A program made the translations under genes and the position numbers. Below the pieces are notes generated by a model. It worked only from the letters and a program-made list of their open reading frames with translations, was not told the origin of the DNA and ran no database searches. DNA of 64,000 nt from Cetobacterium somerae ATCC BAA-474. Lineage in GTDB: Bacteria; Fusobacteriota; Fusobacteriia; Fusobacteriales; Fusobacteriaceae. The first letter of the stretch is position 1. Every line of letters begins with the position of its first letter. The DNA lies in NCBI RefSeq assembly GCF_000479045.1, contig NZ_KI518180.1, positions 1 through 64,000 on the forward strand, in the 5' to 3' direction. Positions 16,632-29,838 of the stretch are shown here, one piece after another.

Positions 16632-17765
16632 ATGAAAGGAAATAAAACTACAGGAGCTATACTTTTAGCTTGTTCTTTATTGATAGCTTTTATAGCAGGG
16701 AAAGAGTTTAAAAAAATGAGAGAGCCTGAGCCTATTGTAAAAGGAGAGGGAGTTACACAAGTAAAGATGTTAAGTGAGTATTTTCCAGATATAAAAGGAA
16801 CTAATATGGATACTGAAATCTATGTTTTAAAAGGTAAAGAGAAGGGGGGATCTACACTTATTTTAGGTGGAACACATGGAAATGAACCGTCAGGACTTTT
16901 AAGTGCAGTATTATTTATAGAAAATGCTAAAGTTGATAAGGGAACTGTTTATGTAATTCCAAGAACTAATAATAGTGGATATACACATAATGACCCTCAA
17001 GAGGGATCGCCTCAAAGGTTTACAATTAAAACTAAAGATGGAGATAGATGGTTTAGATATGGTTCACGTGCAACTAATCCACTAGATCAATGGCCAGACC
17101 CAGATGTGTATATACACGCAAGTTCTGGACAACAGTTATCAGGAAATGAAACTAGAAATATAAATAGAGCTTATCCTGGAAGGCCTGATGGAACGTCTAC
17201 AGAAAAAGCTGCTTATGCAATAGTTCAACTGATAAAAAATGAAAAGATAGACATGACAATAGATTTACATGAAGCCTCACCAGAGTATCCAGTTATAAAT
17301 GCAATAGTTGCTCATGATAGAGCGATGGGAATTGCATCAAATACAGTAATGAATCTAGAGTTTGAAGATGTGGCAATAGGATTGGAGCCATCTCCTGTTA
17401 GTTTAAGAGGATTAACTCATAGAGAGTTAGGAGATTTTACAGATACATATGCAATTTTAATGGAAACAGCTAACCCAGCTCAAGGTAGATTGAGAGGAAA
17501 AACTAATGAAGCTTTAGTTGTAACTGGTGTTGATCCAACATATGTAAAAGCTCAAAAATTAGGTCGTTTATTTGTACCATTTGATGAGAAAGGGCATCCT
17601 CTTGACGAAAGAGTATCAAGACATGTTGGAAGTGTTGTAGAACTTATAAAAGTGATGGGAGAAAATGAACCTGAAAAAGAGATTATAATAGAAAATGTTC
17701 CCACAATTTTAGAGATAAGAGAGAATGGAATAGGAAATTACTTGAATAAAGTGACAAAAAATTAA
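16632..17765 (+). CDS. M14-type zinc hydrolase, succinylglutamate desuccinylase/aspartoacylase family
   Basis: This 377-residue protein has an N-terminal hydrophobic anchor (residues 8-23), so it is exported or membrane-bound. The zinc site is H82 and E85 in GGTHGNEPSG and H213 in DLHEASPEYP, with a likely catalytic glutamate at E278 in METANPAQG. Family members cleave amide bonds next to a free carboxylate, such as those in N-acyl-aspartate or glutamate. In this cluster a role cutting gamma-glutamyl oligomers outside the cytoplasm is plausible but unproved. Confidence 0.8.
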   Translation: MKGNKTTGAILLACSLLIAFIAGKEFKKMREPEPIVKGEGVTQVKMLSEYFPDIKGTNMDTEIYVLKGKEKGGSTLILGGTHGNEPSGLLSAVLFIENAKVDKGTVYVIPRTNNSGYTHNDPQEGSPQRFTIKTKDGDRWFRYGSRATNPLDQWPDPDVYIHASSGQQLSGNETRNINRAYPGRPDGTSTEKAAYAIVQLIKNEKIDMTIDLHEASPEYPVINAIVAHDRAMGIASNTVMNLEFEDVAIGLEPSPVSLRGLTHRELGDFTDTYAILMETANPAQGRLRGKTNEALVVTGVDPTYVKAQKLGRLFVPFDEKGHPLDERVSRHVGSVVELIKVMGENEPEKEIIIENVPTILEIRENGIGNYLNKVTKN

Positions 17766-17775
17766 GAGGTGAGTT

Positions 17776-18906
17776 ATGGAAACTGTTGTTTTTACTTTCA
17801 TAGGAATATTTTTTATAAAATTAATTTATGAGAAGATATCTTTAGAAAAAGCTAGAAAAAAAATAAAGATAGTTATTCATGTAAATGGAATAAGAGGTAA
17901 ATCAACAGTTTCTAGACTTATTGATGCAGGATTAAGAGATGGAGAGAAAAGAGTATTTACTAAGGTCACTGGAACAGAACCAAAATATATAGATATTGAT
18001 AATCAAGAAAAAAATATAAAAAGAATTGGAAAAGCAAATATAAGAGAGCAGATAAAAACTATAAAAAAAGCTGCAAAGTGCCAAGCAGATATATTAGTTT
18101 TAGAGTGTATGGCTGTGAAGCCAGAGTTGCAAAAGATATCAGAGGAAAAAATTGTAAAAGCAGATATAGGTGTGATAACTAATGTAAGATATGATCATTT
18201 AGATGAGATGGGTGAGAGCTTAGAAAAAATTACGAACTCACTTTGTAATATGATGCCTAAAAATGGAATTTTAGTAACTGGAGAAGAGAAAAATTTAGGT
18301 ATAATTAAAGAGAAAGCTGAATTAAAAGTAACTAAAGTTTTATTCATGGATGAATTAAAAGATGAGTATAAAGAGATAGACTTTATAGAAAATGTAGCAG
18401 TAGCTTTGAAAGTCTGTGAATGTTTAGGTGTAGATAGAGAAGTAGCATTAAAAAGAATGAAAAAATATAAAAAAGACTCTGGAGTTTTAAAAGAGATAAA
18501 ATTTCTAAACTCTCAAGGTAAAAAAATAAGTTTTATAAATCTTTTAGCAGCCAATGATCCTGATTCTAGTGAGAAGATTATAAAAAATTTTGAGAGTGAA
18601 GAGTTATGGACTAGAAAAAAATACCTTATGGTTAATAATAGAAGAGATAGATTAAGTCGATTAGAGCAATTTGTAAATTTTGTTGAAAAGCATGAGAAAA
18701 AATTTGAAAAAATATTTATCTCAGGTGAGAGCATAAATATTTTTTATAAGAAACTTAATAAAAATATGAATAAAGTTGAAGTTTTGAAAAACATAGAGCA
18801 ATTCGATATTTTAGCTGAAGATTCAGTTATTTTTGCAGTGGGGAATATATGTGGGAAAGGAAAAGAGTTGTTAAAAGAGATTGAAAGTAGGGGTATAGAT
18901 GAATGA
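17776..18906 (+). CDS. pgsB: poly-gamma-glutamate synthase PgsB/CapB
   Basis: The 376-residue protein matches the CapB/PgsB length of just under 400. An N-terminal membrane segment (residues 3-17) is followed by a Mur-ligase-like P-loop, HVNGIRGKST (35-44), the ECMAVKPE motif near 110 and TNVRYDHLDEMG near 135. It would activate glutamate with ATP and add it to the gamma-carboxyl end of a growing chain at the inner face of the membrane. Its stop overlaps the pgsC start by 8 bp, indicating coupling. No PgsA/CapA gene is in the cluster. Confidence 0.92.
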   Translation: METVVFTFIGIFFIKLIYEKISLEKARKKIKIVIHVNGIRGKSTVSRLIDAGLRDGEKRVFTKVTGTEPKYIDIDNQEKNIKRIGKANIREQIKTIKKAAKCQADILVLECMAVKPELQKISEEKIVKADIGVITNVRYDHLDEMGESLEKITNSLCNMMPKNGILVTGEEKNLGIIKEKAELKVTKVLFMDELKDEYKEIDFIENVAVALKVCECLGVDREVALKRMKKYKKDSGVLKEIKFLNSQGKKISFINLLAANDPDSSEKIIKNFESEELWTRKKYLMVNNRRDRLSRLEQFVNFVEKHEKKFEKIFISGESINIFYKKLNKNMNKVEVLKNIEQFDILAEDSVIFAVGNICGKGKELLKEIESRGIDE

Positions 18907-19327
18907 AACTATAGTTATAATTGGGGTATTATTAAGTATTTTATTTTATGAAGTAAGTGAACTATCTCCTGGTGGACTTATAGTTCCTGGTTATTTTGCA
19001 CTTTTTTCAAATGACTACAAAAGAATAGTTGTAACAATATTAGTTGCATTTTTTGTATTAATAGTTGTGAGGTTTTTAGAAAAATATCTCATAATATATG
19101 GAAGACGTAGATTTGCAATATATATTATAATAACTTTTTTACTTAAAAGATTTATAGGAGAGTTAGATTTTGAGATTTTAATTGGAGGAGAGGTAATAGG
19201 ACTTCTTATACCTGCAATTTTAGCTCAAGATTTAGATAGAAATGGAGTAAAAAAGACTTTGCCAGCACTTCTTATATTAACAGGAGTTATAAAAAGTATT
19301 ATTATAATAAGTGGGAGTTTTATATGA
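18899..19327 (+). CDS. pgsC: poly-gamma-glutamate biosynthesis protein PgsC/CapC
   Basis: This 142-residue, nearly all-membrane protein has about four to five helices, close to the 149 residues of the Bacillus protein. The opening ELSPGGLIVPGY motif is the CapC hallmark. It forms the membrane part of the synthase with PgsB. It overlaps both pgsB (8 bp) and the next gene (4 bp), so the three products are likely made in fixed ratio. Confidence 0.92.
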   Translation: MNETIVIIGVLLSILFYEVSELSPGGLIVPGYFALFSNDYKRIVVTILVAFFVLIVVRFLEKYLIIYGRRRFAIYIIITFLLKRFIGELDFEILIGGEVIGLLIPAILAQDLDRNGVKKTLPALLILTGVIKSIIIISGSFI

Positions 19328-20283
19328 AAAAATATTCATTATATTTATTAGCAATTTTAGTTGGAATATGTTTAATCTTAGGGGATATGGAGTTTGGAGA
19401 TAAGCATGAAGGTTTTGATGAGATGTTAGAAGCTAAAAATTTAATGGTAAAACTTTCTAAAGAGATATACAGTGAAAAGATAAACAGAGCAATTAATATT
19501 GATAAGAAATTAGATATTTTAGAAAGTGGTTTGATAGGAGAAGAGTTCACAGGAATAACAACAACATTAGGAGATTTAGATAGTAAGAGAATATCTACAA
19601 ACCCAGAGTTTGCAGCTTATTTTGTGAAAAAATTGAAAAATAAAGGATTGAAAAAAGATGATGTTGTATATGTAAATATGTCGAGTTCATTTCCAGGTCT
19701 TAATCTGTCTTTAATATCAGCCTTAGATACTCTCAATTTAAGGGGAGTTATAATAAACTCCATAGGTTCATCAATGTATGGTGCTAATAACGAAGAGTTT
19801 ACATTTTTAGAAATGATAAATTTTTTAAAATCTAAAAATATGATAAAAAATAGTGTAGAGCTTTATACGTTAGGTGGAGATGCAGACGAAGGATTAAATT
19901 TCGATGAAGATGTGAAAGGGCACTTAGTAGAGAGATTAAATGAGATAGATATTCCAAAATTAGATTTTAAAGATTTAAATGACAACATAGGGAAAAGAAT
20001 AGCTTACTATGAAAAATATCCAAATCCAAAGTATTTTATAAATATTGGTGGGAATTTAGTTTCTACTAAGTTAGAAAAGTATTATGAAAGTTTAGGAATT
20101 CCAACTTTAACTATGTTAAATATTAAACAGATAGCTCTTGCTAATGGAATTTCTAATGTTAAAAATACAAAGCAACTATATGAAAAGTCTCAAAATCTTA
20201 TATTTTATTTTGGGATTATATTTGCCTTTATAGGGTATATTTTGAAGATATTTTATAAAAATAAAAAATCCATTCGTTATTGA
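19324..20283 (+). CDS. pgsW: poly-gamma-glutamate system protein PgsW
   Basis: The 319-residue protein has one N-terminal and one C-terminal membrane segment (about residues 4-19 and 296-313) around a soluble domain. It overlaps pgsC by 4 bp. Genes of this type directly follow pgsB and pgsC in several bacteria and are annotated PgsW; their biochemical role is unknown. The motif VYVNMSSSFPGLN and a TLGGDADEG loop are visible, but no catalytic assignment can be made. It ends the cluster at a bidirectional terminator. Confidence 0.8.
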   Translation: MKKYSLYLLAILVGICLILGDMEFGDKHEGFDEMLEAKNLMVKLSKEIYSEKINRAINIDKKLDILESGLIGEEFTGITTTLGDLDSKRISTNPEFAAYFVKKLKNKGLKKDDVVYVNMSSSFPGLNLSLISALDTLNLRGVIINSIGSSMYGANNEEFTFLEMINFLKSKNMIKNSVELYTLGGDADEGLNFDEDVKGHLVERLNEIDIPKLDFKDLNDNIGKRIAYYEKYPNPKYFINIGGNLVSTKLEKYYESLGIPTLTMLNIKQIALANGISNVKNTKQLYEKSQNLIFYFGIIFAFIGYILKIFYKNKKSIRY

Positions 20284-20299: not shown

Positions 20300-20617
20300 C
20301 TAGTTATACATTACTCTTACAGTAACTTTACCTTTTAAATTATTTTGTTTTGAATTTAAAACTAATTTTCCACTTATATCTTTTTCATTGTATGACTTAA
20401 TATTATTAAGTTCTTTAATATAAACTTTAACTTGTTCCTCTTTAGAGTTATCTAATTTAAAATTAAGAACATCTTCATTTGACATTTTCTTAATTTCTAT
20501 TTTACTAGGGTTTATTAAATTTAATCTTGTAGAAATATCAATATTTGCATTATTGTTTGAACCAAGAGTAAAAATAAAATTTAGCACAAAAAAACTAAAG
20601 AAATAGAATTTCTTCAT
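20300..20617 (-). CDS. small secreted pilin-like protein under its own riboswitch
   Basis: The 105-residue protein has a signal peptide (cleavage near residue 18-20). The mature part is about 85 residues of predicted beta-strands ending in KGKVTVRVMYN, the alternating pattern that closes the major pilin and the large adhesin of this locus. The start follows TAAGGAGGATTAAA. It is the only gene after the second c-di-GMP riboswitch and promoter, so it is regulated separately from the main operon. A minor pilin, tip or terminator subunit is the likeliest role; homology is too weak to be sure. Confidence 0.6.
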   Translation of the reverse strand: MKKFYFFSFFVLNFIFTLGSNNNANIDISTRLNLINPSKIEIKKMSNEDVLNFKLDNSKEEQVKVYIKELNNIKSYNEKDISGKLVLNSKQNNLKGKVTVRVMYN

Positions 20618-20674
20618 TTTAATCCTCCTTAAAATTTAATAATAAAACTAAAATTAAATTAAAATTAAATTAAA

Positions 20675-20698
20675 ATAAAGTAGTATTCACTTCTTTAT
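20675..20698 (-). promoter_or_regulatory. possible expression-platform hairpin of riboswitch 1
   Basis: On the minus strand ATAAAGAAGT pairs with ACTACTTTAT (one mismatch) around a GAAT loop, followed by a broken T-rich run. It lies between the aptamer and the gene at 20617, where a terminator or regulatory hairpin is expected. The U-tract is interrupted by A's, so termination would be weak. Confidence 0.45.
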
Positions 20699-20699
20699 A

Positions 20700-20775
20700 T
20701 ACTGCAACTGGCTGCCATTTTAAAGGCCCTATAGCTTTGCGTCACACAGTTTCCCATGCTTTGCCTTTATTTTAA
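20700..20775 (-). ncRNA. c-di-GMP-I (GEMM) riboswitch 1
   Basis: Read on the minus strand, the region contains the GEMM core: GGCAAAGC, a P2 stem-loop with GAAA tetraloop (CATGG-GAAA-CTGTG), the near-invariant GACGCAAAGCTATAGGGCC (20745-20725) and the closing ATGGCAGCCAGTTGC. These are the conserved parts of the c-di-GMP-I aptamer, including tetraloop and receptor. It lies between a good promoter and the pilin-like gene at 20617. It shares its GCAAAGCTATAGGGCCT core with riboswitch 2 upstream of the main pilus operon. Confidence 0.9.
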
Positions 20776-20800
20776 TTCTTCCAAATTAACCTACAATAAA

Positions 20801-20830
20801 ATTGTACTATATTGTTATTTCATTTGTCAA
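20801..20830 (-). promoter_or_regulatory. promoter of riboswitch 1
   Basis: On the minus strand TTGACA (20830-20825), an 18-bp spacer and TACAAT (20806-20801) form a promoter directly ahead of the aptamer and just past the stop of the preceding gene. The pilin-like gene is therefore transcribed on its own. Confidence 0.7.
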
Positions 20831-20852
20831 TAGCAGAAGAAATACAGCTAAA

Positions 20853-21296
20853 TTAATATTTTCCAATGATTCCTATACCTATTTCATTTAATATTATTGT
20901 TTCTTCATCTAAAAGAGATTTAGAATCATTAGGAAGTTCCTTAAAAATTATATAACTTTTATAATTTTCACCTTTATTTAAGATATCTATTTTGTTATAT
21001 ACCAATTTTATTAATTTTTCCTCTTTTGATTTTAATATTATAAATTTTGGAAAACATTGAAGCATAGATTCTAAACTATTATTTTGAAACTCCTCTGGAG
21101 TCTCAAAATATGTTAGAAGTTTAACTGTTTTATCTCCGTTATTTATAAGATAAATATCTTTAACAGAATTATTATTTAAATCTAACTCTATCTTTGTAGG
21201 AGTTATAGATAAATTAAATTCACTTGATAATATGATAGTAGAAAAAATTAAATATATAAATAATAATTTTATGTGGAACACTCTCCTTTTAGCCAT
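20853..21296 (-). CDS. short chaperone-like secreted protein
   Basis: The 147-residue protein has a signal peptide (to about residue 25). The mature part starts NLSITPTKIELDLNNNSVKDIYLINNG, the opening beta-strands of a PapD-type N-terminal domain, and includes KLVYNKID like the chaperone G1-strand region. At half the length of the two full chaperones in this locus, it would hold only the first Ig domain. The start is 5 bp after the EAL stop with no clear ribosome site; a GTG at codon 6 sits immediately after AGGAGA, too close for normal spacing, so the exact start is uncertain. Confidence 0.6.
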   Translation of the reverse strand: MAKRRVFHIKLLFIYLIFSTIILSSEFNLSITPTKIELDLNNNSVKDIYLINNGDKTVKLLTYFETPEEFQNNSLESMLQCFPKFIILKSKEEKLIKLVYNKIDILNKGENYKSYIIFKELPNDSKSLLDEETIILNEIGIGIIGKY

Positions 21297-21301
21297 AAGT
21301 T

Positions 21302-22009
21302 TTATAGAGCTAACTCGTTTTCTAGAATTGGTTTTCCCATATAGTAACCTTGTACAAAATTAACACCAATCTCTTTAATAAAATCAAATTGTTCTTTAGT
21401 TTCAATTCCTTCAATTGTAATCTCGTGTTTCATTGTTTTTAATAGAGATACAATTCCTTTATAAACCTCTTTTCCTAAAGGACAATTAATATCTTTTAAT
21501 AAACTTCGATCAATTTTAACTTTATTAATTTGAGTTTTTAAAAGAGTTTCCAGACTAGAGTTTTTCATAGGAAAATCATCCATGACAACCTTTATTCCTA
21601 ATTTATTTAGCTGATTGATTCTAGTAATTAATTTTTTATAGTTAAAATCTCCTCTTTCAGTTAATTCAATTTCTAGATTAGATAAGTTACATTTTAATAG
21701 ATTTACTTTTTCAAGAAATTCGTCCATTAAAATTGTTATTGGTGAAATATTTATTGCTATTTTTTTTCCATCTTTTAAATATTTTTCAATTTTTTTTAAA
21801 ATTAAAAAATCTAGTTCGTGTATAGTGTCTTGTTTTTCTAAAAATTTTATCACTTTTATTGTAGAAATAACATCATTATCTTTATTATAAAATCTCGATA
21901 AAACCTCATAACTCTTTATTTCCCCGTCTAAAGAATATATCGGTTGAAAAGCAACTTTTAAAATATCTTCTAAATTAAGTTTTAAAAGATTTTCCAATTG
22001 TTTATTCAT
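21302..22009 (-). CDS. EAL-domain c-di-GMP phosphodiesterase
   Basis: This 235-residue protein is a stand-alone EAL domain with no membrane segment or sensor. The EAL signature reads EVL at residues 35-37. The remaining catalytic set appears intact: N87 in INIS, E115 in ELTE, D144-D145 in MDDF, K165, E200 in IEGIE and Q220 in QGYYMGKP. It should therefore hydrolyse c-di-GMP to pGpG in the cytoplasm. The ribosome site is GGGGGA. It lies within the pilus operon controlled by a c-di-GMP riboswitch, so its product could feed back on its own transcription. Confidence 0.9.
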   Translation of the reverse strand: MNKQLENLLKLNLEDILKVAFQPIYSLDGEIKSYEVLSRFYNKDNDVISTIKVIKFLEKQDTIHELDFLILKKIEKYLKDGKKIAINISPITILMDEFLEKVNLLKCNLSNLEIELTERGDFNYKKLITRINQLNKLGIKVVMDDFPMKNSSLETLLKTQINKVKIDRSLLKDINCPLGKEVYKGIVSLLKTMKHEITIEGIETKEQFDFIKEIGVNFVQGYYMGKPILENELAL

Positions 22010-22041
22010 ATTGTCCCCCAGTATTGATGTATTTTCTATAA

Positions 22042-23595
22042 TTATTTTAGTTCTATATTTAAATAAAATTGTCCTGTATGTTCACCTTCGATAGCTTCAC
22101 TAGTGTTTGTAAGTGTACTATTTAATATGAAATAGCTATTTCCAGTAGATGTTTCTTTTTGCTCAGGAGTTACTGAAAAATTGCTAGCTATAATTTTAGA
22201 ACTTTTATTTTCATTTTCAAGCTCTACTTTATCCATAGCTGGAACTAGAGTCAATTCTTTACTAGATAAATTTTTTATAACTATTTTAGAAGTAGCAGCT
22301 TTTGAGTCATCACCTTTTAAAACTGTTCCAAAATCTAAAACTTCTTTAGACACAATTTCAAAAGTTGGAGTATTTATCTTTCTAAACTTTATTGGTGGAT
22401 ACTCAATAGATAATGTATTCCCAAATTTATCATTTGGAATATTTATGTTTTTCTCTGAATGTCCAGGACCTGTAGAACTAGGAATTAAAGATATATTAAG
22501 ATTATTTCCAGTATATGGTATATCAATAGTATCATTTCCATTATTAATAGGAAGATAAGCATATTCTATAATTTTTTTTATTACTTGTTGTGGAATAGCT
22601 ATTTTCAACTCGCCACTAATTGTTGCTGCTGCTAAAGTCACAAATCTTTCAGTATCATCAATTCCTAAGTTACCAGTTAATTTTTTTCTAAAGAAGGGAG
22701 TGTTAATCTCTTTCAAATAAGGATAAATTTTGAAGTTTTCTTCATTAATATTTAGATAAATGTTATTGATTTCCTCGGGACCATTAACATTAGTATTGTC
22801 GCTTGAACTATTTGTTACGGTGTATCCCCACTCTGAAATACTTCCTATTCCTATAGCAGAAAGTAGTTTTGCACTACCATTAGTACTACCTATCGTTTCT
22901 AAAGAAATAGTTCCCAGAGAAATAGTGTAATATCCGTTTTCGTATGTAATTATATTTTCATCTATTGTATAATCTTTTAATTTACTAGTGTATCTAAAGT
23001 ATGTATTAAAGTCATTATACGTAGATTCCTTATTCTCAATAAACTCAGCTCTGTAAATCTTTTCAACTAGTCCTGTTTTGTTATTAATTACTCCTAAATA
23101 GAATGTTTCAGGCTTTAAATCATAGGATACCTCTAAAACCTTTTCTCTGTTTTGTTCAATTAGACTATAACTTATATTTTTTAGTTTGATTTTTTCACCA
23201 TTTCTTAATTTAACTCCTTGTTCGAAAACTCTATTCATTTTAAACTTCTCATTTTTTTTCATATAAGTTGCAGCATTGTCTAAATTTTCTAAAATAAAAA
23301 TCTCATAGTTATTGCTATCAGTTACAATCTTCTTTTTTTCTGCAGCTTTTTTTAAATCTTTAAAATCAAAAATTATTTTATTTTCGTTCTCATATATTAC
23401 CCCAGTTATTTTTTCTGTTTTTATTTTTAGAACTTCAATATCTAAATTAGCTTTCTCTCTTTGTGGAAGAGCTTCAATTGTTGTAACTTCATTTTTTGAA
23501 AAGCTAGTTAAGAAAATACAGATAAAGAAACTGAAATTAATTAAAAATTTATTTATCCCCCTCACTCTCCCCGTTTTGTTTTTTATTTTCCTCAA
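22042..23595 (-). CDS. large exported pilus-associated protein, probable tip adhesin
   Basis: The 517-residue protein has a hydrophobic signal near residues 17-32. It reads as an N-terminal domain (about 40-230), a long central beta-rich region and a C-terminal pilin-like domain (about 410-517) with the DFGTVLKG strand and the closing GEHTGQFYLNIELK strand. This order, binding domain then pilin domain, is that of two-domain tip adhesins. The reading frame opens with TTG at 23595, overlapping the LysM gene by 47 bp. A GTG at codon 11 is the alternative start; no ATG is available before residue 90. The receptor cannot be predicted. Confidence 0.65.
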   Translation of the reverse strand: MRKIKNKTGRVRGINKFLINFSFFICIFLTSFSKNEVTTIEALPQREKANLDIEVLKIKTEKITGVIYENENKIIFDFKDLKKAAEKKKIVTDSNNYEIFILENLDNAATYMKKNEKFKMNRVFEQGVKLRNGEKIKLKNISYSLIEQNREKVLEVSYDLKPETFYLGVINNKTGLVEKIYRAEFIENKESTYNDFNTYFRYTSKLKDYTIDENIITYENGYYTISLGTISLETIGSTNGSAKLLSAIGIGSISEWGYTVTNSSSDNTNVNGPEEINNIYLNINEENFKIYPYLKEINTPFFRKKLTGNLGIDDTERFVTLAAATISGELKIAIPQQVIKKIIEYAYLPINNGNDTIDIPYTGNNLNISLIPSSTGPGHSEKNINIPNDKFGNTLSIEYPPIKFRKINTPTFEIVSKEVLDFGTVLKGDDSKAATSKIVIKNLSSKELTLVPAMDKVELENENKSSKIIASNFSVTPEQKETSTGNSYFILNSTLTNTSEAIEGEHTGQFYLNIELK

Positions 23596-23869
23596 AGTAT
23601 AATATCTGTCCTGGATAAATATCCCTACTATTTTTTAGATTATTTATTCGAAGTAGCTCTTCTAAAGGTATTCTATACGAATTGGCAACCTCTTCCAAAT
23701 GCTCTTTTCCTTTAATGACATAGTAATTTTTACTGTTCGAAGGATCCCCCTTGCCTATTCCAATAACTAATGTGTTTTTTTCTTTTATTTTTATATCATA
23801 ATTCAAATGAGAATTTCCTAAAACAAAGGAATTTAAAATAAAAATTCCCATAAAAATTTTATATATCAT
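23549..23869 (-). CDS. exported LysM-domain protein
   Basis: This 106-residue protein has a signal peptide (cleavage near residue 18-20) and one LysM domain at residues 49-92, with YYVIKGKEHLEEVAN, the LLRINNL motif and IYPGQILYF. LysM binds peptidoglycan. In the middle of a pilus operon it may anchor or position the assembly system at the cell wall; I do not know a standard chaperone-usher system with such a part. Its start overlaps the previous gene by 11 bp. Confidence 0.8.
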   Translation of the reverse strand: MIYKIFMGIFILNSFVLGNSHLNYDIKIKEKNTLVIGIGKGDPSNSKNYYVIKGKEHLEEVANSYRIPLEELLRINNLKNSRDIYPGQILYFEENKKQNGESEGDK

Positions 23870-24305
23870 TTATGTTCCCCCTTTTCTTATATTGAGATAC
23901 AATAATAGGAATATATCCTACATATTCTCCTTCAATATCAATAACTTCCCCTTTATTAATATCTTTTCTATCTAAAACAGCGTAAAAAGCAAATTGCTCT
24001 CTCTCTTTAGTTATGATTATCTCTTTTTTAGATGATTCCATTCCTAGCTTTTCTACCTTTAGCCATTTTCTACGATTAGTCATAAGATTATACTCTGGAA
24101 ATTCAAACATTATTTTTTTCCCAAAATCTTCCTCTTTATTATCTGTAAAAACTTCAATGATTCCCTTTCCTAGAATTTTATCTTTGTCTAAATGAGTAGT
24201 ATTGATGCTTTTAAATCTCATAGGCTCAGCTATTCTAACCTTTATTTCACTAAAAGTTAACTTTTGAATACTAAATAGAAATACTAATAAAATTAATTTT
24301 TTCAT
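23859..24305 (-). CDS. exported pilus-locus protein of unknown function
   Basis: The 148-residue protein has a signal peptide (to about residue 19) and a beta-rich mature part starting KVRIAEPMRFKSINT. The opening resembles the N-terminal donor-strand region of small beta-sandwich subunits, but no family is recognised. It lies 2 bp after the 183-residue gene and overlaps the LysM gene, so it is made with them. A minor subunit or periplasmic accessory protein are both possible. Confidence 0.6.
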   Translation of the reverse strand: MKKLILLVFLFSIQKLTFSEIKVRIAEPMRFKSINTTHLDKDKILGKGIIEVFTDNKEEDFGKKIMFEFPEYNLMTNRRKWLKVEKLGMESSKKEIIITKEREQFAFYAVLDRKDINKGEVIDIEGEYVGYIPIIVSQYKKRGNINDI

Positions 24306-24307
24306 AT

Positions 24308-24859
24308 CTATTTCCCATCCCTAACTTCAACTGTTATATAAACTCTTTTTCTATGTAGTCCCTCTTTTGTAATGTTTGAACCATCAATACTTAAAATATT
24401 ATCATCGACAACTTTTTTATTTATATATTTAGGTGAGTATATTCTAGTATCAATATTTCCATCATTATCTAAATCTAACTCTTTTTGAGAATACTTTAGC
24501 ATATAGTAATCTTTTTTCTCAGGCTCTTTATTCATCTCAATTTCAAATGGAATATCAAGTTTTTGATTATCAATAACCATAGCTTTGATTTCAACATCTG
24601 ATATAATTTCTAAAGGTACTATAACTTTAACTTTACTCTCCATCATAACAGTAGAGATTTTTTCTAAAACCCAAACATCTTCATTTTCATCAACTTTTTC
24701 CACTGGTGAAGCAGGAATTAGTGGAATCATAGGCATTGATAGATTTGAGTTAGCAACTGGAGGTCCCATTGTTTCATCTGAAGGAAGTGTCATTATTCCC
24801 TCAGATGAAAAAACTACCAGTTGTGTTAATATATAAAAAAGTATAAATAAAACCTTCAT
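24308..24859 (-). CDS. exported proline-rich pilus-locus protein of unknown function
   Basis: This 183-residue protein has a signal peptide (to about residue 19), a low-complexity Pro/Ser/Met-rich segment (residues 20-55, with PMIPLIPASP) and a beta-rich C-terminal part. DLDNDGNIDTR near residue 132 looks like a calcium-binding loop of the DxDxDG type. It follows the usher gene by 14 bp. No family is recognised; the flexible linker plus folded domain suggests an envelope-spanning accessory protein. Confidence 0.6.
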   Translation of the reverse strand: MKVLFILFYILTQLVVFSSEGIMTLPSDETMGPPVANSNLSMPMIPLIPASPVEKVDENEDVWVLEKISTVMMESKVKVIVPLEIISDVEIKAMVIDNQKLDIPFEIEMNKEPEKKDYYMLKYSQKELDLDNDGNIDTRIYSPKYINKKVVDDNILSIDGSNITKEGLHRKRVYITVEVRDGK

Positions 24860-24873
24860 ATTTTACCCCTATT

Positions 24874-27480
24874 TTAATTTTTTAAAAGTGCTATTCCTTT
24901 TTCTCTAAATTTTAGAACAATTTCATTGTCTTTTGCCTCGATATATTTTAAATCTATTGTTTCTATTAAAGGTGGAATATTTAATTTATCTCCAAGATAA
25001 GTTATTTCTACACTATAACTTTCAGTTAATAATCCACTCACATAGAAAATTCCGCTTTCATCTGGAATTGTATTTTCTAAAATTTTTCCCTCTTTATCTT
25101 TTATTTTGATAATTGTATTATCATAAATGTCTTTTATATCATCATCACTCAGATTTAATTTTTCATCAACGATAAATACTCCAGATAAAGTTACCATAGC
25201 TTTTAAAGGAATAAAAGCTTCAATAGTTCCTGTATTTGTTCCACGAACTGCTACTTTATTACTTCCCAAAGAGTATGATGGTTTTCTAATTTTAGGATTT
25301 AAATCATATAAAATTCCATTTGGAACCCCAAAGAAATATGCTTCTCCTTCATCACCTGTAACTTCTGTTTGAGAACCAATTTTAATCTCTACATTATCAA
25401 CTAATTTTTCTCCAGAATCATATATATTATTACTATTTTCATCTACAAAAGCTATAACTTTAACTCTACTTGAATTCATACTTTCAACATTTCTAGTTAT
25501 ATCTTTTAAATCAACAACTTTATCTACTCCAAGTTTATAGTTTTGTTCACCATTTTTTCCAGCAAACATTCCAGCACTTAACCAGTTGTCATAGTTTAGA
25601 TCGAATCTAAAGGTAAATCTTGATTCATCCCTATTTGAATAGCTAAACTCTATAGAAAAATCCAGAGCATCCCAGAGATTTTTATTCATAAGAGTTAAAA
25701 CACTTTCGAAATCTTTTCCATTGTCACTCCATCTATTATTTAATCTAGTATTAACATAATGTAGCCCAGTGTAATAAAGATTGATTGAATATTCATCTCC
25801 ATCACTGTTTCCAGTACTATATTCCCCTGTAACAAGGAGGTCTCTCATTAAGTTTTTATAAATTGAAACCCCAATATCATAGTTTTTTTCAGTACCTTCA
25901 TTATAATAGTCATTTATATAGTAGTTACTATCAATTGAATAACCATTTCCTGGATTATATTCTATTGTATAAGATCTTACTGTTTCAAGATCATAGTATA
26001 ATCCAAAATTTTGATATTCTGTTCTCAGCTTAACGTTGTTTATTTGTATTTGAGCCTCTAAGTACTCTTTTGTTCTTTGGTCTTTTCCTTTTTCTCCTCC
26101 TAGAACTAAAGTATAGGGCATTCTAAAAACATAGTTAGAATAAACAGCTTCAGCATTAAAGAGGTCTAAATAGTCAATCTTTTCATTAGAAGTATCAATA
26201 CTTCTAATATATCCAGTTCCTAAAGTAAGATTTTCAGTTAGACCATAGTATATATTTCCTTCGCTAGCGTACTTTCTAGAATCATGGTCCTCTCTTATTT
26301 TGAAATCATACTCAATCTCACCTTTGTTTTGTTGTCTAAAATCAACAGCTGTATTGATATCTATTGTGTATATTTTTCCATTTGGTTCATAAACTCTTAA
26401 AGTATATTCTCTATCATTTTTTATCTCTGAATTTTGAAACTCTACAATACCATTTTCAGCATATTGAACAGCAATGGGAAAACCTAAATATAGTAGCTCT
26501 ACTCTACTACCAATAGGAACATTTTCTCTAATAACAATGTCTTTTCCCACATAAAAATATCCTTTTTCTTTTTTTAAGCTAAGACCTAACTCTCTTTCCA
26601 CTGTTCCATAACTTCCAAATTCAAGTGAATGATTTTTATAAATTTCAGGATAGTAAAGGTAAGTATCACCTAACATTTTTTCTTTTACATCATAAGACGT
26701 AGTAAGTTCACCATAAAGTAGATTACCTTGATATTCTAAGTCCCCAGTCCATCCTGTTTCAAAATTTTCACCTTTACTCTTTGATAACTCTCCTTGAACA
26801 TTGAATCTCATATATCCAATGTCAAATAATCTATTTTTATTAGTATAAATAATCTCATTTTTATTTTCTCTTGTGAACTCGTTATCCAATCGATTTTCTA
26901 AAGAGGTGTCAATTTCAAAGGGAGTACTAAATGTTAATTGAGTTTTAAGAAGCAATTTTTTTGTATCGATTTCTAAAGAGTTTGTGAAAATCTCTTTAAA
27001 TAATTCTATCTCAACATAAATCTCATTACCCTCTCTAAGTATTGCAGATTCATTAAACTGTATTTTTCTATTGGGATCACTTAAAGTTGCCACCTTTTGT
27101 TCCCAATCTATATCTATTTTATGTAGTTCTTTTCCAACTTTCATGGAAATTCTATTTTTTTCAAAGTCATAATTTTTAAATCTAATGATATTTAAAAATT
27201 CTATTAGTGGGATATAATCATAACTATCTTTTTTTAAAAGTTTTAAATGAGTTCCTCTAACTCGTCCATTTACTATAACAGAATAAACCATCTCATCGTT
27301 TATAAAAGAGGTACCTTCTAACTCAGCTTTTAAAATCTGATACTCCTCTTCTGTTATAAGGTTTTGAGCTTTAAAAATCTCTAAATCTTCTAAGGAGTAG
27401 TCCATTGAATATGTAGTTGTAAATAGAATCAACCCAGCTCCGAGAAGACTCATTAGAAACCGACTATATGTTTTTTGCAT
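24874..27480 (-). CDS. outer-membrane pilus usher (divergent)
   Basis: The 868-residue protein has the length of a fimbrial usher. After the signal peptide a short helical motif, FKAQNLITEEEYQILKAEL (SHOCT-like), precedes an N-terminal domain. About 550 residues of alternating aromatic/hydrophilic strands form a beta-barrel, including the usher-like PIGSRVELLYLGFPI. The C-terminus carries two Ig- or carboxypeptidase-regulatory-like domains (DENSNNIYDSGEKLVDNVEI near residue 675). The layout is closest to the alpha class (CFA/I, CS1) of ushers. Two chaperones and a pilin lie beside it. Exact class needs profile searches. Confidence 0.75.
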   Translation of the reverse strand: MQKTYSRFLMSLLGAGLILFTTTYSMDYSLEDLEIFKAQNLITEEEYQILKAELEGTSFINDEMVYSVIVNGRVRGTHLKLLKKDSYDYIPLIEFLNIIRFKNYDFEKNRISMKVGKELHKIDIDWEQKVATLSDPNRKIQFNESAILREGNEIYVEIELFKEIFTNSLEIDTKKLLLKTQLTFSTPFEIDTSLENRLDNEFTRENKNEIIYTNKNRLFDIGYMRFNVQGELSKSKGENFETGWTGDLEYQGNLLYGELTTSYDVKEKMLGDTYLYYPEIYKNHSLEFGSYGTVERELGLSLKKEKGYFYVGKDIVIRENVPIGSRVELLYLGFPIAVQYAENGIVEFQNSEIKNDREYTLRVYEPNGKIYTIDINTAVDFRQQNKGEIEYDFKIREDHDSRKYASEGNIYYGLTENLTLGTGYIRSIDTSNEKIDYLDLFNAEAVYSNYVFRMPYTLVLGGEKGKDQRTKEYLEAQIQINNVKLRTEYQNFGLYYDLETVRSYTIEYNPGNGYSIDSNYYINDYYNEGTEKNYDIGVSIYKNLMRDLLVTGEYSTGNSDGDEYSINLYYTGLHYVNTRLNNRWSDNGKDFESVLTLMNKNLWDALDFSIEFSYSNRDESRFTFRFDLNYDNWLSAGMFAGKNGEQNYKLGVDKVVDLKDITRNVESMNSSRVKVIAFVDENSNNIYDSGEKLVDNVEIKIGSQTEVTGDEGEAYFFGVPNGILYDLNPKIRKPSYSLGSNKVAVRGTNTGTIEAFIPLKAMVTLSGVFIVDEKLNLSDDDIKDIYDNTIIKIKDKEGKILENTIPDESGIFYVSGLLTESYSVEITYLGDKLNIPPLIETIDLKYIEAKDNEIVLKFREKGIALLKN

Positions 27481-27502
27481 TCTCTATCCCCCTAAATAGA
27501 TT

Positions 27503-28225
27503 TTAAATTTTGATTTTCATAATTACAGATTCATTTTCTTTTATCAATAAAGTATTGTAATTTTTAATTTTTTTAAAAATAGCATCATCTTTAATCTCTT
27601 GATTAAACTCTTTTAAATCTATTTCTTCATTTATTAAAACTCTTTTGTTCCCCAATAAAAAACTATTTTTATTTCTTGAATCACTTAAATAAAATGAGAA
27701 TGTTCCACGTCTATTTCCCATGTTTTTTATTTTTCCAGAAAACTCTAGTTTTTTGTTTTCTTTTTTAACTGCTAAATTTTTTAAAGTTAAACTACTTTTT
27801 AATTCCCCCACATATCCTACAATCTCCATTTTAAGATTTGTTAAAACTTTAAGAGTAGAACTTTTGCTTTTTATCTCTTTTTCACTTATAACAGGCATCT
27901 CTTTAACACCTAAGACTGTAGTATATTCCCCGACTTCAGTTCCTCTAGGAGCTTTTATAAAAACTTTTAAAATACCTTCTTGTCCAGGCTTTAAATTGAG
28001 AGTTTTAGGGTAGTATTCAACCCAGCTGGTCATATCTTTTTCATTTTTACTACGCTCTACAGAAAAAAGATATTTAATTGAAGAACTAGTTCCATTATAT
28101 AAATAGTATTCTTCAATCTCTCCAGCCCCTCCTATATTTTTATCAAAGTTCACAGGATGGATATTAACATATGAGTATACTTTAGAGAATAAAATCATAA
28201 GTATAATGAAAATATTTTTTTTCAT
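27503..28225 (-). CDS. periplasmic pilus chaperone 2
   Basis: The 240-residue protein has a signal peptide (to about residue 18) and two Ig-like domains, the size of PapD/CfaA-type chaperones. The first domain opens with VNIHPVNFDKN and contains WVEYYPKTLNLKPGQEGILKVFIKAP, the strand arrangement that holds the subunit-binding edge. It is similar to chaperone 1 upstream, indicating duplication. It lies just after the terminator hairpin that follows the pilin gene and 22 bp ahead of the usher. Confidence 0.8.
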   Translation of the reverse strand: MKKNIFIILMILFSKVYSYVNIHPVNFDKNIGGAGEIEEYYLYNGTSSSIKYLFSVERSKNEKDMTSWVEYYPKTLNLKPGQEGILKVFIKAPRGTEVGEYTTVLGVKEMPVISEKEIKSKSSTLKVLTNLKMEIVGYVGELKSSLTLKNLAVKKENKKLEFSGKIKNMGNRRGTFSFYLSDSRNKNSFLLGNKRVLINEEIDLKEFNQEIKDDAIFKKIKNYNTLLIKENESVIMKIKI

Positions 28226-28239
28226 AGTTTCTCTCCTTA

Positions 28240-28269
28240 AAAAAGCCTCTAAAGTTCTTAGAGGCTTTT
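28240..28269 (-). terminator. intra-operon terminator after the pilin gene
   Basis: On the minus strand AAAAGCCTCTAA and TTTAGAGGCTTTT form a stem around GAAC, ending in a run of T and followed immediately by the ribosome site of chaperone 2. It sits where fimbrial operons often keep a partial terminator so that pilin exceeds usher. Confidence 0.8.
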
Positions 28270-28279
28270 AAATTTTTAG

Positions 28280-28918
28280 TTATCTTGTTCTACCTGCTGG
28301 TGTTCCATCAACTTCAGGTACCTTACTAAATTTAACACTTAGTGTTGATGTATTAGAGTAAGCTCCCTCTAGTAGAGTAAGAGTAGGATTACTAATTACT
28401 CCTGCAGCAATCTCTGAATTTAAGCTAACTTTTACAGCAGTTGCTCCTTGTAATGTAGCAAATTGGTTAGTTTTTGTAACTGATGTTTCAGTACCTCCTA
28501 TTTTTAAGACATTGCTAGAACTTGTAGCACCAGTAGGTACACCAGCACCAGTACCTATAGTAGCTGTTAATGTATGAGGAATTTTAGAACTGCTATTTAC
28601 TAAATTACTATTTCCTGCAAGAGATATCTCTAAAATACTACTAGTTGGAAATGCGCCCCCATTACTTTTTTTAATATAAATATCTCTATCTACAGATGAA
28701 GCAGCAGGATTTGTTTTTAAGATTGTTCCATGATCTAATTCAATTGATCTAATTGCAGCAGCATTTTCCGTATCTTTTTCTGTTATAATAAGTCCCGAAT
28801 CAACTATAAATGCCTTTGTTGTAATATCAATTTGATTCTCTCCAGTACTCCCAGCTTCTCCTGTTGATGCCATAATTGTTGCTGATAATGCTAATAATCC
28901 TAATAAAACCTTTTTCAT
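28280..28918 (-). CDS. major pilin subunit
   Basis: The 212-residue secreted protein has a signal peptide ending in MAS-T (about residue 18). The mature protein is rich in Ser, Thr, Gly and Ala, has no cysteine, and is predicted all-beta. It opens with QIDITTKAFIVDSGLIIT and ends with GAYSNTSTLSVKF, resembling the first and last strands of CS1-type pilins. It lies between two chaperone genes and is followed by a hairpin terminator that would raise its yield over the usher. It is the best candidate for the fibre-forming subunit. Confidence 0.75.
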   Translation of the reverse strand: MKKVLLGLLALSATIMASTGEAGSTGENQIDITTKAFIVDSGLIITEKDTENAAAIRSIELDHGTILKTNPAASSVDRDIYIKKSNGGAFPTSSILEISLAGNSNLVNSSSKIPHTLTATIGTGAGVPTGATSSSNVLKIGGTETSVTKTNQFATLQGATAVKVSLNSEIAAGVISNPTLTLLEGAYSNTSTLSVKFSKVPEVDGTPAGRTR

Positions 28919-28939
28919 TTTTATTCCTCCCTATGTTAT

Positions 28940-29650
28940 CTATATTTTTATTTTGTTAATTGTCCTATAGTTTATATCTTCATATATCTCTATTTCATAT
29001 GGATGATTCTTTTTCATTCCATTTAACTCTAAAGTTATTTTTTTATTTTCCCCTGCATATATACGTCCTAAGGTATTTCTAACTGTAGTTTTATTTTTAC
29101 CCTTAACCTGCACCCCAAACTCTACACCTCTTTGACTAGATGGATTTTTAAGAGCAATATCTAATTTTGTCTTTCCATTCTCTTCATAGATTTTATAACT
29201 ATCTACTTTTATTAAAGGTTCTAAGTTTCCAACATATCCAATCATCTCTAAAGAGGCATTTATTCTAATTCCCACATTAGATTTTATTCCTGTGCCATCT
29301 TTTTTTATATTAGGAATTGATATTAATGAACTATCTAGATGAAATCCATACTCTCCATCTTTAACCTCTTTAGGTGCTTTAGCAAAAACTTTTAAAAGCC
29401 CAGTTTCTCCTGGTTTAACTGTTAAAATTTTTGGATAAAACTCTACCCATTGACTCATATCTCCTCTTATACTACTCCCAGGAGACACAGCAAATTTATA
29501 TCTTAGAGTTTCTAATCCATTATTAGGAAAATAAAATTCTTGATAACCCTCACCGTTATCTATTCTTTTTTCAAATCCATCAGGCATTATATGAAAACTG
29601 TAAGAAATGATGTTTAAAATTATAAAAAAAAGTGTAATTAATTTTTTCAT
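28940..29650 (-). CDS. periplasmic pilus chaperone 1
   Basis: This 236-residue protein has a signal peptide (to about residue 17) and two Ig domains like chaperone 2. It shares the pattern MSQWVEFYPKILTVKPGETGLLKVFAKAP. It is the first gene of the main pilus operon, with a strong GGGGGGAG ribosome site and a c-di-GMP riboswitch leader upstream. The two chaperones may serve different subunits (pilin versus tip protein), as in some alpha-class systems; that division is inferred. Confidence 0.82.
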   Translation of the reverse strand: MKKLITLFFIILNIISYSFHIMPDGFEKRIDNGEGYQEFYFPNNGLETLRYKFAVSPGSSIRGDMSQWVEFYPKILTVKPGETGLLKVFAKAPKEVKDGEYGFHLDSSLISIPNIKKDGTGIKSNVGIRINASLEMIGYVGNLEPLIKVDSYKIYEENGKTKLDIALKNPSSQRGVEFGVQVKGKNKTTVRNTLGRIYAGENKKITLELNGMKKNHPYEIEIYEDINYRTINKIKI

Positions 29651-29680
29651 GCTCCCCCCATTATAAAGTTAAAAAATTTG

Positions 29681-29728
29681 TAAAAAAAAAAGTTGCACTT
29701 ATTGTATATTAATACAAGTTGTGCAACT
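29681..29728 (-). promoter_or_regulatory. expression-platform terminator of riboswitch 2
   Basis: On the minus strand AGTTGCAC (29728-29721) pairs with GTGCAACT (29698-29691). An inner TTGTAT/ATACAA stem closes on TAAT, and ten T's follow (29690-29681). It is a strong intrinsic terminator whose first arm uses bases at the 3' end of the aptamer (CCAGTTGC), so ligand binding should influence its formation. Confidence 0.85.
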
Positions 29729-29795
29729 GGCTACCATTTTACAGGCCCTATAGCTTTGCGTCCTCAAATTTCTTTGAGTTTGCCATATTTTATTT
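29720..29795 (-). ncRNA. c-di-GMP-I (GEMM) riboswitch 2
   Basis: On the minus strand the leader contains GGCAAACTC, a P2 stem-loop CTCAAA-GAAA-TTTGAG with the GAAA tetraloop, the conserved GGACGCAAAGCTATAGGGCC and ATGGTAGCCAGTTGC. These match the c-di-GMP-I aptamer closely. A strong terminator overlaps its 3' end, and the pilus operon begins at 29650. It should couple pilus transcription to cellular c-di-GMP. Confidence 0.93.
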
Positions 29796-29838
29796 ATTGT
29801 GGAATTTTATTATAGATGATTTTATAAATAAATTCTAT

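Follow-up and report, generated by a model that had tools for sequence, protein, structure and literature searches.

The locus described here raises the question whether a pilus operon of Cetobacterium somerae can be switched on by a second messenger that one of its own products would degrade. It lies at positions 20300-29794 on the minus strand of a 64,000-nt window (the whole stretch of DNA that was analyzed) from contig NZ_KI518180.1 of strain ATCC BAA-474, which carries the label C125 in our set and belongs to a 3.07-Mb draft genome. With a probability of roughly 0.6, we consider it to be a highly diverged chaperone-usher pilus operon which is under a transcriptional ON switch of the cyclic di-guanosine monophosphate class I (c-di-GMP-I) and which is self-limited by an EAL-domain protein.

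The main unit consists of ten genes, all on the minus strand between two c-di-GMP-I aptamers, with intergenic gaps of -47 to 54 nt. The order is chaperone, pilin, chaperone, usher, genes for proteins of 183 and 148 amino acids (aa), a LysM protein, a 517-aa protein, the EAL protein, and a short chaperone-like protein; aptamer 2 and a single gene for a 105-aa protein follow. The components named in the first-pass annotation (chaperones, pilin, usher, adhesin-like protein, LysM protein, and EAL phosphodiesterase) are all present, but the unit comprises ten genes rather than six. In a Pfam scan of the proteins from the locus, the LysM and EAL domains scored above cut-offs and the chaperones gave weak hints, while no match was obtained for the 868-aa protein, the pilin candidate, or the 517-aa protein.

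Is the 868-aa protein an usher? The Pfam Usher model (PF00577) matches neither this protein nor anything else in its genome. An AlphaFold model was built from 12 relatives (predicted local distance difference test score, pLDDT, 76; predicted template modelling score, pTM, 0.51). When this model was compared with the PDB using Foldseek, the top 18 fold matches were all FimD/PapC (best E 1.3e-23), and the first non-usher outer-membrane barrel appeared only at 3e-6. A search with the protein itself revealed relatives in 39 of the 98 Fusobacteriota genomes, and three distant ones (genomes G053, G054, and G059) exceed the Pfam Usher cut-off. The missed match thus reflects divergence, and PF00577 is a detection aid, not the definition of an usher. 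Judged by its predicted fold and by the chain of sequences that leads through its relatives, the protein is an usher, as had been claimed from the open reading frame (ORF) alone. A 96% identical usher occurs in an uncultured Cetobacterium. The genome of strain ATCC BAA-474 encodes four ushers of class A (that of the window and three with 37-44% identity to it) plus a single one of class B (25%).

The chaperones point in the same direction. The model of chaperone 1 matches, besides its best hit CsuC, also CupB2, FaeE, FimC, EcpB, and PapD; its fold is nearest to CsuC, yet ECP and CFA/I chaperones match too. PapD_N was matched in six of its 24 aligned relatives (best 1.5e-6), and for the short chaperone-like protein the value was 0.044 (0.001 for an orthologue). 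Fimbrial profiles thus recognize relatives of the usher and of the chaperones, whereas the 868-aa protein itself is missed. Nothing useful was obtained when profiles of usher, pilin, and chaperone were searched directly against PDB sequences. An assignment to a clade by hhalign against single Escherichia coli K-12 proteins was dropped because the FimD-EcpC positive control failed.

Does c-di-GMP switch this operon on? The two riboswitches are found where they had been placed previously, in front of the main operon and of the last gene, on the minus strand. By the Rfam covariance model, both leaders pass as c-di-GMP-I (GEMM-I) riboswitches (scores in Table 1 against a gathering score of 35 bits; E about 1e-9 for each), and a response to the ligand is predicted. 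In leader 1, the 5' arm of the terminator (AGUUGCAC) starts within the 3' strand of aptamer 1, the terminator stem beginning at AGUU, which is the 3' strand of the last aptamer helix. Enforcing this helix in the fold costs 6.0 kcal/mol, an amount that ligand binding could plausibly pay. The same overlap recurs in fusobacterial leaders: in 27 of 31, as counted by eye from leader sequences and folds, the 5' arm begins in or before AGUUG, and the stem sequences differ. Among the other four, one arm begins just past AGUUG, and three are orthologues of leader 2 without overlap. Because the 5' arm of the terminator overlaps the 3' end of the aptamer, ligand binding would hinder termination; leader 1 thus appears to have the anatomy of an ON switch, with the operon being switched on by c-di-GMP.

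Some results weigh against this assignment. A shorter hairpin persists in leader 1 even when the aptamer helix is enforced. In another class A operon of this genome, on contig C10, the terminator touches only nucleotides just past the aptamer helix, and enforcing that helix costs nothing; the ON argument is therefore weaker for the C10 operon. A search of 36 leaders for a P1 helix around the aptamer gave no support for one, the true pairs being no better than swapped ones. In leader 2, terminator and aptamer do not overlap. In other bacteria, some c-di-GMP-I riboswitches are known to act as OFF switches. If this also applied here, c-di-GMP would turn off pilus expression, which the EAL protein would sustain by positive feedback. 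The arrangement in leader 2 would fit such a scheme; the scheme is, however, very improbable, given that in leader 1 and most other leaders the 5' arm overlaps the 3' end of the aptamer, as expected for an ON switch. Folding of leader 2, together with three close relatives, tentatively suggests that a long outer helix may sequester the 3' arm of the terminator, which would also result in an ON switch.

Is the EAL protein able to close the loop? Gaps of 32 and 5 nt separate its gene from the adhesin gene upstream and from the next gene downstream, respectively. All metal and catalytic residues are kept (E of EVL, N of NIS, E of ELTE, DD, K of KID, E of EGIE, and Q of QGYY). The catalytic positions had thus been read correctly before, but the signature motif is EVL rather than EAL, and loop 6 reads DDFPMKNSS, which deviates from the consensus DDFG(A/T)GYSS. 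The latter speaks against an active enzyme: loop 6 is non-canonical in all four aligned EAL proteins from pilus operons, and it has been reported to be needed for dimerization and for binding of Mg2+ and c-di-GMP (PMC7290235). The GGDEF-EAL proteins of the same genome retain loops of the DDFGTGYSS or DDFTAG type. Alternatively, the protein might be a c-di-GMP receptor with weak or no catalytic activity, with pilus and riboswitch as described but without feedback by degradation. The altered loop and the replacement of EAL by EVL would be in accord with such a receptor. We nevertheless regard it as rather unlikely, since every metal and catalytic position is retained, since the gene is under strong purifying selection (ratio of nonsynonymous to synonymous substitution rates, dN/dS, 0.07), and since class B operons have a phosphodiesterase of a different family (HD-GYP) at the matching regulatory place. 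With loop 6 altered but the catalytic residues kept, activity of the 235-aa protein as a c-di-GMP phosphodiesterase is likely, though not assured.

We thus propose that the pilus genes probably limit their own expression. At low c-di-GMP, the terminator of leader 1 would pair, using the 3' end of the aptamer, and halt RNA polymerase. When c-di-GMP is high, the ligand-bound aptamer would retain its 3' strand, resulting in read-through and in production of chaperones, pilin, usher, accessory proteins, adhesin, and EAL protein. The EAL protein would then hydrolyze c-di-GMP until the operon closes again. An ON switch combined with a working EAL enzyme amounts to negative feedback, and the outcome would be a self-limiting burst of fibres, not steady production. 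The closed c-di-GMP loop which the first-pass annotation had proposed is still something we infer; what the anatomy of leader 1 adds is an argument for its negative sign.

Is the combination of riboswitch and EAL gene more than an isolated case? This genome has only two stand-alone EAL genes, and each ends a riboswitch-led class A pilus operon. In the genus Cetobacterium, seven stand-alone EAL genes of this subfamily were found. Five belong to class A operons led by a riboswitch (window, C10, L063, L066, and L099), where they come after the adhesin gene, and the other two are orphans beside IS607-like recombinases, as seen in translations from L100 (2910-5336). An EAL gene is carried by five of nine riboswitch-led class A operons versus none of 12 without riboswitch (hand count; one-sided Fisher p 0.006, the test ignoring relatedness). 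That the EAL gene is a fixed part of all riboswitch-led class A operons is rejected by the same count. Also, the sister operon L064 has both riboswitches without an EAL gene, which weighs against our reading.

Class A operons share the layout chaperone, pilin, chaperone, usher, 183-aa protein, 148-aa protein, often LysM, and then the adhesin (400 to 2129 aa). The full arrangement of the window is present in three species (window, L063, and L050 plus L099, which were joined by homology because the locus of that genome is split across two contigs). Riboswitch control as a family-wide trait was rejected: a riboswitch within 8 kb upstream was found for nine ushers out of 39 in class A and for 15 out of 40 in class B, some contigs ending too early to tell. 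Translations also revealed mobile elements: an istA/istB-like pair is inserted between pilin and chaperone 1 in L064 (10804-13082), and a transposase fragment lies ahead of the EAL gene in L009 (12642-12995).

Eight c-di-GMP-I riboswitches are encoded in this genome. Besides the two at the window locus, two more lead pilus operons (class A on C10, class B on C145), one precedes a DUF4402 gene on C21, and one a MarR-type gene on C80. The remaining two are on C57 (L010, 1784-4552), where a riboswitch, a gene for a diguanylate cyclase with periplasmic solute-binding protein (SBP) domains (SBP-GGDEF), a second riboswitch, and a DUF4402-like gene follow each other; this arrangement is possibly the positive arm of the same network. 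Throughout Fusobacteriota, 143 c-di-GMP-I sites score above the cut-off, and for 42 of them an usher of this family lies no more than 12 kb away.

Class B operons, which occur in many Fusobacteriaceae, start with a riboswitch, optionally a DUF4402-like gene, and then genes for SBP-HD-GYP, SBP, subunit, usher, repeat protein, and chaperone. HD-GYP is another family of c-di-GMP phosphodiesterases. An ON-type c-di-GMP-I leader is found directly before the sensory HD-GYP gene in all nine Cetobacterium class B orthologues, the HD-GYP proteins being 61-100% identical. Three to four c-di-GMP-I riboswitches per class B locus are present in L083 (1193-12699) and L084 (918-14095), where the later ones each precede a subunit/chaperone pair. 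In every Cetobacterium genome read (L011, L079, L080, L081, L088, L102, and L103), an IMP-dehydrogenase-like (guaB) gene precedes the class B operon; the class B locus is thus positionally stable, unlike class A. The wiring of riboswitch and phosphodiesterase recurs, in the second EAL-carrying operon of this genome as well as in the distant class B. We tentatively suggest, with slightly less than even confidence, that Fusobacteriaceae have repeatedly paired a c-di-GMP ON riboswitch with the operon's own phosphodiesterase (EAL near the end in class A, HD-GYP near the start in class B) as a pulse generator, which would give short, self-limiting pilus bursts without a protein regulator.

Table 1. 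Features of the pilus locus in the window, in the direction of transcription.
Feature	Position	Strand	Basis
c-di-GMP-I riboswitch aptamer 1, pilus operon leader	29719..29794	-	Rfam RF01051, 62.7 bits
Leader 1 intrinsic terminator, predicted	29682..29728	-	stem 29691-29728, then U tract; folding, -15.3 kcal/mol
Periplasmic pilus chaperone 1, 236 aa	28940..29650	-	AlphaFold pLDDT 86; Foldseek best CsuC 4e-10
Major pilin candidate, 212 aa	28280..28918	-	position; signal peptide/strand pattern kept in 14 operons
12-bp hairpin, pilin/chaperone 2 gap	28241..28269	-	position shared across related operons
Periplasmic pilus chaperone 2, 240 aa	27503..28225	-	homologous to chaperone 1
Outer-membrane usher, 868 aa	24874..27480	-	Foldseek FimD 1.3e-23; family members pass PF00577
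Conserved accessory protein, 183 aa	24308..24859	-	downstream of usher in almost all complete class A operons
Conserved accessory protein, 148 aa	23859..24305	-	conserved operon member
Secreted LysM protein, 106 aa	23549..23869	-	PF01476 E 3.4e-8
Tip-adhesin candidate, 517 aa or slightly shorter	22042..23595	-	N and C ends conserved in longer orthologues
Stand-alone EAL-domain protein, 235 aa	21302..22009	-	PF00563 4.4e-45
Short chaperone-like protein, 147 aa	20853..21296	-	resembles class B chaperone, 2e-18
Candidate sigma-70 promoter, unit 2	20801..20830	-	TTGACA-18-TACAAT, best regional match, 11/12
c-di-GMP-I riboswitch aptamer 2, leader of 105-aa gene	20700..20775	-	RF01051, 62.2 bits
Small exported Ig-like subunit candidate, 105 aa	20300..20617	-	behind riboswitch 2

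Would these genes build a fibre? The pilin candidate has no match in Pfam or among PDB sequences. Its dN/dS is 0.58 (window versus G005), whereas usher, chaperones, and EAL protein are within 0.07-0.16. Almost all of the 24 class A operons read have a hairpin in the gap behind the pilin gene, ahead of chaperone 2, and these hairpins are unrelated in sequence. The hairpin of the window probably sets an excess of pilin, which may result from protection or partial termination of the transcript. Alternatively, the usher-like barrel and the chaperones might export or anchor a non-fibrous surface protein, with no pilus being built. Pilin and 517-aa protein without Pfam match, a LysM protein and two genes of unassigned role at the locus, and adhesins as long as 2129 aa could be accommodated by such a function. 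We consider it quite improbable, as the layout of two chaperones and usher, the small subunit gene, the conserved hairpin, and the fast evolution of the pilin are as in fimbrial operons.

As to the other genes, paralogues of the 183-aa protein are 42-59% identical, and the LysM gene recurs in class A operons, though not universally. Where the 517-aa gene starts is uncertain, as its ORF, beginning with TTG, overlaps the LysM gene by 47 nt. Orthologues of 1045 and 1072 aa hold an additional copy of a module of about 210 aa, the protein of the window being the short form. DUF4402-type genes follow two other riboswitches of the same genome, as the 105-aa gene follows riboswitch 2, and we infer that the 105-aa protein is related to DUF4402. 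The promoter in front of this unit is a candidate; matches of the sigma-70 type are not enriched overall. To the left of the locus (window 16632-20283), ORF reading indicates a poly-gamma-glutamate synthesis-like cluster (PgsB/PgsC-like) and a carboxypeptidase-like gene.

How does this compare with known systems? For the archaic Csu pili of Acinetobacter, to which CsuC, the nearest fold match of chaperone 1, belongs, we know of no riboswitch or EAL gene. The nearest precedents are FimK and MrkHIJ from Klebsiella pneumoniae, both of which act through proteins. The type 1 fimbrial operon of this species has fimK as its last gene. That operon, fimAICDFGHK, is likewise a chaperone-usher operon encoding an EAL phosphodiesterase (PMC9487511). 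However, FimK additionally carries a DNA-binding domain, and the operon lacks a riboswitch, whereas the EAL protein from Cetobacterium stands alone and sensing would be by RNA. In mrkABCDF/mrkHIJ, c-di-GMP likewise turns a chaperone-usher pilus on, and a neighbouring EAL protein, MrkJ, lowers c-di-GMP (PMC3161979). There, sensing relies on a PilZ transcription activator, whose gene belongs to a separate, convergent unit, and the usher is proteobacterial. A pilus operon of Clostridioides difficile is also under a c-di-GMP riboswitch (PMC11477304), but it encodes a type IV pilus, the riboswitch is of type c-di-GMP-II, and the organism is Gram-positive. GEMM (c-di-GMP-I) riboswitches precede genes which make or destroy their ligand, as here, and are not described before chaperone-usher pili in the same report (PMC12564702).

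In a literature search that covered few subscription papers, no described riboswitch-controlled chaperone-usher pilus was found. This accords with the initial view that no fusobacterial pilus with this arrangement is known to have been described. The arrangement extends further than was thought, to other Cetobacterium genomes and to class B. Proteobacteria, Spirochaetes, Cyanobacteria, and Deinococcus-Thermus are the phyla with ushers in a survey of outer-membrane proteins, which does not list Fusobacteria (PMC4827864); archaic chaperone-usher systems have been reported from Proteobacteria, Cyanobacteria, and Deinococcus-Thermus, in a survey that likewise does not list Fusobacteria (PMC4654587). 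Fusobacteriota would be added to the phyla with chaperone-usher pili by our analysis. Most of these proteins escape the standard usher model, so that such pili have likely been overlooked. The locus would represent a riboswitch-controlled chaperone-usher pilus and a compact loop of sensor, output, and enzyme. Cetobacterium is a common symbiont of the fish gut, and control of attachment in these bacteria would bear on colonization.

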